A stretch of 64,000 nucleotides of DNA, taken from the NCBI RefSeq assembly GCF_029338515.1, contig NZ_CP119988.1, positions 1,984,001 to 2,048,000 of the forward strand, read 5' to 3'. The notes under the pieces were generated by a model. That model was not told the origin of the DNA. It was given only the letters and a program-made list of their open reading frames with translations, and ran no database searches. Below, one piece after another: positions 36,681 to 38,630 of this stretch. The DNA comes from Haloglomus litoreum (GTDB lineage: Archaea > Halobacteriota > Halobacteria > Halobacteriales > Haloarculaceae). Numbering within the stretch: position 1 is the first letter of the stretch; every line of letters begins with the position of its first letter. A program made the position numbers and the translations under genes.

Positions 36681-38630
36681 ATGTCCAGGCGCGACCCGGA
36701 GGTGGACAACCCCGCGGCGAGCGACGCCTCGAAGGATCGGTACGCGCCACCGGACTGGTTCGTGGAGACGGCCAACGTCTCCGACCCCGAGGTCAGGCAG
36801 CGGTTCGAGGACGACTGGCCCGCCTGCTGGGCGGCGGCGGGGGATATGCTCGAGTGGGAGCGCCCGTACGAGACGGTGCTGTCGACGACCGACGACCGGC
36901 TGACGTGGTTCCGGGGCGGCCGGCTGAACCCCTCGTACAACTGCGTCGACCGGCACGTCGAGGCCGGACGGAAGAACGCCGTCGCGCTGCGCTGGATCGG
37001 CGCGTCCGGCGAGCGCGAGTCGCTCACGTACCTCGACCTCCAGCACGAGGTCCAGGCCGTCGCGGCCGGGCTCCGCTCGCTGGGCGTCGGCCAGGGTGAC
37101 GTGGTGACGCTGTTCATGCCGAACGTGCCGGAGCTACCGGTGACGATGCTCGCCTGCGCGCGCCTCGGTGCCCTCCACAACGTCGTCTACGCGGGGTTCT
37201 CGGCCGGCGAGCTGACCGAGCGGATGGCGAGTGCCAGCTCGGAGTTCCTGGTCACCTGCGACGGCTACTACCGCCGGGGGAGCGCCGTCGGCCAGCGGAA
37301 CACCGCCGACAGCGCGCGCCTCGACCTCGACGCCGACGTGACGGGCGTGCTGGTCGGCCGGCTCGAGGACGACCCGCACCTGGGCCGTGACTACCACGGC
37401 TACGGCGCGCTCCGCGACGAGTTCGCGGGCACGACGGTCGACCCGGTCGCACGCGACGCCGTCGACCCGCTGTTCGTGCTGTACACCTCCGGGACGACCG
37501 GCGAGCCCGATCAGGTGACCCACGCGACCGGGGGCTACCTCTCCTACGCGGCCTGGACGGCGATGGCCGTGCTGGATATCCGGCCGGAGGACACGTACTG
37601 GTGTGCGGCCGACATCGGCTGGATCACCGGTCACACCTACGGCGTCTACGGGCCGCTCGCGCTCGGGACGACCACGCTGCTCCACGAGTCGCCGGCCGAC
37701 CACCAGGCCGGCGGCCACCCCTGGAACAGCATCGAGCGCGAGTCCGTGGACGTCTTCTACACGTCCCCGACCGCGGTCCGGTCGATGCGCCAGCGCGGCG
37801 CGCCGCCCTGCGAGGAACACGACCGCTCCTCGATTCGGTTGCTGGGTACCGTCGGGGAGCCCATCGACCCGACGACCTGGCACTGGTACCGCGAACACCT
37901 CGGCGGCGGGGAGGCCCCCGTCGTCGACACCTGGTGGCAGACCGAGACCGGCGGCATCGTCGTCGCGACGCTGCCCGCGGTCGACTCGATGGAGCCGGGG
38001 TCGGCCGGTCCCGGCGTCCCGGGGCTCTCCATCGAGGTGGTCGACGGCGGTGGCGACCCGGTCGACGACGGCCAGGAGGGAACGCTGGCGGTCCGCCGCC
38101 CGTGGCCGGGGATGTGCCGGCGGCTCACTGCGGAGGCAGCGGAGGGGGGTGCCGGCGCCGAGACCCCGGAGGCCTGGCAGTACGTCACGGGCGACCGTGC
38201 GGTCCGCGGTGAGGACGGCTACGTCACCCTGCTGGGCCGGGACGCGGACACCATCGAGATGGACGAGGCGGTGGTCGGGACGGCGACCGTCGAGCGGGTC
38301 ATCAGCTCGCTCGACGGCGTCACCGAGGCGGCGGTCGTCCCCATCCCGGGAACGGACGAGGTGGCGGTGTACGTGAGCTGCGAGCGGAGCCGCACGGACC
38401 GGGAGACGCTGGCCGAACGGGTCCGCGAACGGGTCGCACAGGAGGTCTCACCCGCCGTCCGCCCGGACCGTATCGTCGTGGTGCCGGAGCTCCCGAAGAC
38501 CCACTCCGGGAAGGTGATGCGACGGCTGCTCACCGACGTCGTCGCGAACCGGGGCTACGGCGACACGAGCGCGCTCCGGAACCCAGAGGTCGTCGGTGAG
38601 ATCGAGACGGTGACGCGCGAGCAGGAGTGA
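36681..38630 (+). CDS. Acetyl-CoA synthetase-like protein with altered active-site motifs
   Basis: This 649-residue protein aligns along its length with the canonical acetyl-CoA synthetase at 41047-43044. The ATP-phosphate loop (residues 268-280) reads YTSGTTGEPDQVTH instead of YTSGTTGKPKG. The hinge/CoA region reads GRDADTIEMDEAVVGT instead of GRLDDVMNVAGHRLGT, so the conserved GHR is lost. The C-terminal catalytic lysine (THSGKVMRR) and the WWQTETGG motif are intact. It may be an inactive or regulatory paralogue, or have a different acid or acceptor. The start at 36681 aligns with the paralogue; an ATG at 36648 is in frame. It precedes the Bat-type regulator. Confidence 0.8.
   Translation: MSRRDPEVDNPAASDASKDRYAPPDWFVETANVSDPEVRQRFEDDWPACWAAAGDMLEWERPYETVLSTTDDRLTWFRGGRLNPSYNCVDRHVEAGRKNAVALRWIGASGERESLTYLDLQHEVQAVAAGLRSLGVGQGDVVTLFMPNVPELPVTMLACARLGALHNVVYAGFSAGELTERMASASSEFLVTCDGYYRRGSAVGQRNTADSARLDLDADVTGVLVGRLEDDPHLGRDYHGYGALRDEFAGTTVDPVARDAVDPLFVLYTSGTTGEPDQVTHATGGYLSYAAWTAMAVLDIRPEDTYWCAADIGWITGHTYGVYGPLALGTTTLLHESPADHQAGGHPWNSIERESVDVFYTSPTAVRSMRQRGAPPCEEHDRSSIRLLGTVGEPIDPTTWHWYREHLGGGEAPVVDTWWQTETGGIVVATLPAVDSMEPGSAGPGVPGLSIEVVDGGGDPVDDGQEGTLAVRRPWPGMCRRLTAEAAEGGAGAETPEAWQYVTGDRAVRGEDGYVTLLGRDADTIEMDEAVVGTATVERVISSLDGVTEAAVVPIPGTDEVAVYVSCERSRTDRETLAERVRERVAQEVSPAVRPDRIVVVPELPKTHSGKVMRRLLTDVVANRGYGDTSALRNPEVVGEIETVTREQE

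Follow-up and report, generated by a model that had tools for sequence, protein, structure and literature searches.

A haloarchaeal acetyl-CoA synthetase paralogue with an altered CoA-transfer loop, paired with a BAT/HTH_10 regulator: a possible acetate sensor

We describe a family of acetyl-CoA synthetase (Acs) paralogues, here named AcsX, in which residues of the first half-reaction are retained, the loop of the second half-reaction is eroded, and the gene is paired in the genome with a regulator. Our preferred reading, to which we give a probability of roughly 40%, is that AcsX is an adenylation-competent, CoA-transfer-impaired Acs paralogue that would act as an acetate sensor in partnership with the adjacent BAT/HTH_10 regulator. 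The gene studied comes from Haloglomus litoreum and lies in a 64,000-nt stretch of contig NZ_CP119988.1, the whole of which is called the window. Its features are given below, with residues numbered as in Salmonella Acs (anchors K609, W414, D500 and R526).

36681–38630, + strand: AcsX, Acs paralogue, 649 codons
37488–37514, + strand: A3 loop SGTTGEPDQ; by alignment, SGTTG intact, K272 to D, G273 to Q
37932–37955, + strand: A5 motif WWQTETGG, unchanged by alignment
38235–38279, + strand: A8 hinge/CoA loop GRDADTIEMDEAVVG; R515 retained; D517, N521, S523, G524, H525 and R526 gone
38493–38513, + strand: A10 motif PKTHSGK with the catalytic lysine (K609 equivalent), unchanged but for R606 to H
38852–41005, + strand: module regulator; integrase-like N-terminal domain, PAS, GAF, BAT, HTH_10
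41020–43044, + strand: canonical acetyl-CoA synthetase (type B partner), over the TIGR02188 cut-off
43470–44858, + strand: Peripla_BP_6 substrate-binding protein of a Liv-type ABC transporter (Pfam)
44958–48976, + strand: two BPD_transp_2 permeases (44958–45917, 45914–47338) and two ABC ATPases (47338–48096, 48083–48976)

Sequence and predicted structure of AcsX

The AcsX frame is open over 36648–38630. An in-frame ATG at 36648 is probably unused, and the ATG at 36681 is the likelier start because four distinct Haloglomus relatives share its Met-Ser-Arg beginning, each with an in-frame stop just 5′ of it. The protein is 84% identical to its counterpart in H. halophilum and 80% to that in H. 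irregulare, and contains the Pfam domains ACAS_N, AMP-binding and AMP-binding_C. Its AlphaFold2 model (mean pLDDT 82.5, with values below 50 at residues 281–287, the A3 loop) best matches Salmonella Acs in the PDB (1pg4; Z 48.8, rmsd 3.2, 525 residues), with other Acs chains in a tie. AcsX scores under the curated cut-offs of TIGR02188 (AcsA; 602.3 < 724.95) and NF001208 (623.2 < 657); the neighbouring Acs (P0002) clears both, with a TIGR02188 score of 782.

The A8 region reads GRDADTIEMDEAVVG in AcsX and GRLDDVMNVAGHRLG in the neighbouring Acs, and the A3 region reads SGTTG-EPDQ against SGTTG-KPKG. The substitutions are K272D, G273Q, D517A, N521E, S523D, G524E, H525A and R526V; SGTTG, the acetate pocket, A5, D500, R515, K609 and R191 are unchanged. 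The original prediction, that EPDQ stands for KPKG and MDEAVVG for VAGHRLG with WWQTETGG and SGKVMRR kept, is confirmed by this alignment, with one correction. An E occupies the first KPKG position in 18 of 128 non-AcsX proteins, so that, judged by the alignment, K to E is ordinary variation and the true A3 change is that of K272 and G273. PMC11784441 links A3 and A10 with the formation of acetyl-AMP, and A5 and A8 (signature DX6GXR) with the CoA step. The expected split, with residues assigned to the second half-reaction lost and the adenylation machinery retained, was likewise found, although adenylation itself may be weakened, K272 being in the first-half-reaction motif A3. Use of a different acyl substrate via a changed pocket is not favoured, since the pocket residues are unaltered.

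The window protein departs at 30 of 175 alignment columns conserved to 97% or more in 132 other Acs. Across the clade, 120 of these 175 columns are still invariant in AcsX, and erosion affects 7 of 11 in the two named regions against 26 of the 164 others (Fisher p = 9e-4). The two regions had been set by the original prediction, but the sequences are related, and the p value is for this reason a guide only.

Distribution and conservation of AcsX

Acs-like ORFs from the loci studied numbered 279, of which 239 were left after identical and short (<560 aa) pieces had been dropped. In the first tree, built from these 239, AcsX forms a clade of 111 members with an SH-like support of 0.97, and the clade persists with 115–126 members (support 0.96–0.99) when more sequences are added. 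The window protein groups with paralogues lying upstream of the regulator, apart from canonical Acs (support 0.97–0.99), and the clade is spread across Halobacteria. As far as the trees and alignments can tell, the divergence is family-wide and not limited to the window gene. Within the clade, the window protein and 11 others from five genera make up a subclade with support 1.0. The upstream copies of g15 genomes fall just outside, in a sister group without support (0.0) that also includes one canonical solo Acs (L162); in 7 of 8 g15 upstream copies G524 is Asp (e.g., GDATIG, GDHRIG), the exception being L232. Outside the named motifs, in the C-terminal GDTS-T-L segment, a change from Thr to Ala at Salmonella position 631 is an AcsX-wide signature (111/115).

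Loss of the canonical residues is graded. K272, G524, H525 and R526 are all present in 31 of 125 AcsX members and all lost in 11, and they are all present in 188 of 195 other Acs (201 non-AcsX rows less 6 set aside for gaps at the four motif positions), six of the seven exceptions being g15 upstream copies. Among 130 AcsX and sister sequences, G524 is retained in 87, H525 in 58 and R526 in 114; the minimum numbers of changes on their tree are 6 for K272, 9 for G524, 12 for H525 and 4 for R526. D500, R515, K609, W413, W414, D411, T412, Q415 and G387 are retained in 130/130, with a minimum of 0 changes. Other active-site columns vary too, with retention of 108/130 for P389, 124 for E388, 122 for T416 and 124/128 for R191, and the acetate pocket (W309, T311, V386, W414) is kept in 111/111 AcsX. 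These counts indicate that A8 and the tail of A3 have been eroded repeatedly, with adenylation and acetate-pocket residues near-invariant.

Selection was assessed in the ten pairs of five Haloglomus genomes, in which dN/dS is 0.10–0.28 for AcsX, 0.07–0.16 for Acs and 0.17–0.28 for the regulator. AcsX dN exceeds Acs dN in all ten pairs, if barely in the closest one, and dS is somewhat higher also. Nine of the 12 columns at 517–528 vary within Haloglomus, versus 177 of 633 elsewhere, and none of 34 sampled catalytic columns does, so the A8 loop drifts while the remainder of the protein is held. Conservation of EPDQ and MDEAVVG across species, the check proposed for a selected new function, was not observed; the replacement letters drift even within Haloglomus, and we rejected the idea of a conserved new motif. 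Of the two outcomes that were to count against a new function, canonical orthologues and drift at these sites, each is partly present, in the 31 members with all four residues and in the variable 517–528 columns. We do not take them as signs of simple decay, because no sampled catalytic column varies within Haloglomus and the gene is retained with its regulator class-wide.

Association with the regulator and cluster context

In the first tree, 109 of the 111 AcsX genes are followed on their own strand, within 5.5 kb, by a BAT/HTH_10 regulator; one of the two exceptions sits at a contig end and the other has a regulator 1.4 kb on. The window AcsX is directly upstream of its integrase-like/GAF/BAT/HTH_10 regulator, an arrangement that is usual, not universal, in the clade. 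The N-terminal domain of this regulator (window 38894–39415) is tyrosine-recombinase-like, is fused to GAF-BAT-HTH_10 and resembles plasmid genes annotated as site-specific integrase; Pfam Phage_integrase scores over its cut-off in the orthologue L181 and under it in the window and L196.

Searched with a regulator profile, 82 of 146 family genomes gave matches of at least 599 bits over nearly the whole profile, the other best matches reaching at most 393 bits and beginning at profile position 105 or later. Three genomes hold broken or partial matches: G087, frameshifted beside AcsX, and G108 and G130, at contig ends. The regulator gene of G087 (L145) is broken into three frames next to an AcsX gene that is itself intact, by assembly error or decay. 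An Acs-like gene is directly upstream of the full-length regulator in 80 of the 82 genomes, judged by eye from coordinates and with the sister-group copy as the upstream gene in g15 genomes. G102 and G109 carry the two genes on separate contigs, not adjacent: about 4.9 kb upstream of the G102 regulator is without AcsX, and about 4 kb downstream of the two AcsX genes (L223, L221) is without a regulator. AcsX of G108 (L276) is also apart from the regulator, on the contig bearing acs and the symporter. G102, G108 and G109 are incomplete assemblies of genus g13. AcsX was not found in G130, which has a partial regulator and is 75% complete. There are 61 family genomes without the regulator, and AcsX is present in none of the 42 typed by tree; the remaining 19 are untyped, 12 having matches only in the type B Acs score band and 7 none at 1e-140. 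Nine genera hold both states, with some of the genomes incomplete, and in five loci (L200, L201, L212, L215, L219) the acs-DUF4212-symporter-usp cluster persists without AcsX and regulator.

We also drew an even sample of 79 genomes from the order, in which the regulator was found in 40 at 1e-150. An Acs match of 1e-203 or better occurs in 36 of these 40 (not all typed); among the other four, G154 and G180 have AcsX, G189 has an AcsX end at a contig end, and G204 has none; its regulator (L258) stands beside acs, and just one close Acs match occurs in that genome. Nine genomes of the order with an Acs match of 1e-203 or better had no regulator at 1e-150, and proved to be three with AcsX and a diverged regulator alongside and six with canonical Acs. 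The 1e-203 threshold was rejected for calling AcsX across the order, as canonical Acs reach 1e-215, and discordant genomes were typed by tree. No typed genome has AcsX without any trace of the regulator. With few exceptions, a genome has either both AcsX and the regulator or neither, and canonical Acs stays.

The usual cluster order is acsX, regulator, acs, DUF4212, SSF symporter and usp. In the 14 stretches of the window subclade, acs is of type B, a Peripla_BP_6 gene follows in 14/14 and the symporter is found in 0/14. In the window, the Liv-type ABC transporter (43470–48976) occupies the usual DUF4212-SSF-usp place. A Peripla_BP_6 gene occurs with the regulator in eight loci outside the subclade as well and is therefore not peculiar to it. 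Given its presence in all 14 stretches of this A8-less subclade and in those eight loci, the transporter's substrate may be a short carboxylate. A module of the window type, with an A8-less AcsX, type B acs and a Peripla_BP_6 gene, is also found in a genome of another family (L171, G372), which suggests horizontal transfer of the whole module. Upstream of the window cluster lies a methylmalonyl-CoA mutase gene (32306–34057).

Possible functions of AcsX

In the sensor reading, AcsX would bind acetate and ATP and probably form acetyl-AMP, and AcsX of the window lineage would be unable to adopt or use the thioester-forming state efficiently. When occupied by acetate or acetyl-AMP, it would signal the presence of acetate to the adjacent BAT/HTH_10 regulator, presumably by contact, and the regulator would then set how strongly the adjoining acs and transporter genes, its putative targets, are expressed. 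We favour this reading because the first-half site is retained, the second-half loop drifts, expression is induced by acetate and the pairing is near-constant. The original prediction had named a sensor, a partner subunit and an enzyme for another acceptor as possibilities; the first two are the best class of explanation, and the support expected from a conserved new motif fell away. In the open-access literature searched for the module or the paralogue, no account of AcsX as a sensing or regulating protein was found. Somewhat doubtful is the wider proposition of a class-wide archaeal module in which an acetyl-AMP-forming former enzyme without CoA transfer serves as acetate sensor for a recombinase-derived BAT/HTH_10 factor controlling acetate uptake and activation.

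Several observations weigh against the sensor reading. The AcsX members with all four canonical residues could be ordinary synthetases, the regulator's own PAS/GAF domains could do the sensing, and a single deletion can account for the shared absence of neighbouring genes. G204 has a regulator without AcsX, and in the three g13 genomes the genes are not neighbours.

The chief alternative, which we consider unlikely, is that AcsX is a weak synthetase under relaxed constraint, slow or conditional (at low acetate, or with another short acid), in which the loop changes lower CoA transfer and do not abolish it. The 31 canonical members, the intact acetate pocket and the higher dN of AcsX are in keeping with this, as is the Salmonella R526A enzyme, whose catalysis is reported to fall by only about 2-fold (Reger et al., cited in PMC10455477). 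According to PMC10455477, R526 touches the adenylate phosphate and is believed to stabilise the thioester-forming state; in the Methanothermobacter Acs treated there, Ala at the equivalent position gave an enzyme that neither CoA nor acetate could saturate. In the window, R526 is gone along with D517, G524 and H525. Evidence from Haloferax also speaks against a weak synthetase and for the sensor reading. By published gene order and by locus L196 of H. alexandrinus, in which AcsX is the gene two upstream of the symporter-adjoining acs, H. volcanii acs8 (HVO_A0158) and H. mediterranei HFX_5129 appear to hold the AcsX position, and the L196 and L197 genes fall within the AcsX clade. A quadruple acs1/2/7/9 mutant of H. 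volcanii with acs8 intact is described as not growing on acetate (PMC7746861). As reported in PMC11784441 for H. mediterranei, HFX_5129 is raised on acetate (transcript 3.47-fold, protein also; HFX_5131 3.06-fold), it fails to complement an 11-gene deletion for acetate growth, and its single deletion leaves acetate growth unaffected. In the growth experiments of these two sources, the genes in the AcsX position show no acetate-activating role, and this role may have been lost before A8 was, since L196 still has the hinge motif. The lack of effect of the HFX_5129 deletion (PMC11784441) does not favour an essential activator partner either. A weak synthetase would, moreover, leave the tight pairing with the regulator unexplained.

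It seems rather improbable that AcsX joins the canonical Acs encoded two genes downstream in a hetero-oligomer, as its regulatory or structural subunit. The two lie in the same cluster at most loci, and some haloarchaeal Acs are homodimeric (ACS1, in the account of PMC7746861). However, AcsX and regulator are found with no adjoining Acs in L146, L147 and L169, two different Acs types accompany them at other loci, and Acs is common without AcsX. The partial correlation of AcsX with Acs distances, given the regulator, is 0.48 over all 84 loci but only 0.18 over the 67 with type A partners, against 0.57 and 0.60 for AcsX with the regulator given Acs, all of these values being affected by unequal rates of the three genes. 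The likely partner is the regulator rather than Acs.

We regard as distinctly improbable that AcsX makes acetyl-AMP for another acceptor, such as lysines of the regulator or of Acs. The pattern of retained first-half residues and altered second-half loop would suit such an enzyme, and lysine acetylation has been reported in Haloferax; but no acceptor gene or conserved new acceptor surface was noticed, and the A8 replacement letters drift. A pseudogene or sequencing artefact, to which the A8 drift might point, has a negligible chance and was rejected on dN/dS and class-wide retention, with the frame intact in five Haloglomus genomes, in line with the earlier view that a long intact frame speaks against one and with the well-modelled fold.

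Through these results one odd gene becomes a family that can be tested, that of haloarchaeal acetate clusters with an Acs paralogue tied to a regulator. Natural AcsX variants range from nearly canonical to fully A8-less, and this gradient could show a path from enzyme to sensor. The sensor reading, if true, would explain why ACS8-type genes are induced by acetate yet do not activate it, and annotations of AcsX genes as acetate–CoA ligase may be wrong.

Comparison with known systems

AcsX shares with canonical Acs (S. enterica 1PG4/2P2F), and with the definition of AcsA, the three Pfam domains, the Acs fold, the A5 motif with its TE and the A10 motif with its catalytic lysine, as well as the acetate pocket. 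It differs in its score under the curated cut-off and in the loss of the A3 K-G pair and of every residue of the A8 signature DX6GXR (D517A, G524E, R526V). ACS8 (HVO_A0158) and HFX_5129 resemble it in their published gene order, upstream of regulator, acs, DUF4212, symporter and usp, whereas the Haloferax relative L196 retains VSGHRLG and K272 and has, of these motifs, only G273 changed, to R. The module regulator has GAF, BAT and HTH_10 as in HTH_10/BAT regulators of the bacterio-opsin activator type, but adds an N-terminal tyrosine-recombinase-like domain common to the aligned module regulators. Among HisZ-type regulatory paralogues of ligases, an adenylate-binding paralogue beside a pathway gene acts as regulator; AcsX, in its proposed regulatory role, would resemble these by working principle alone.
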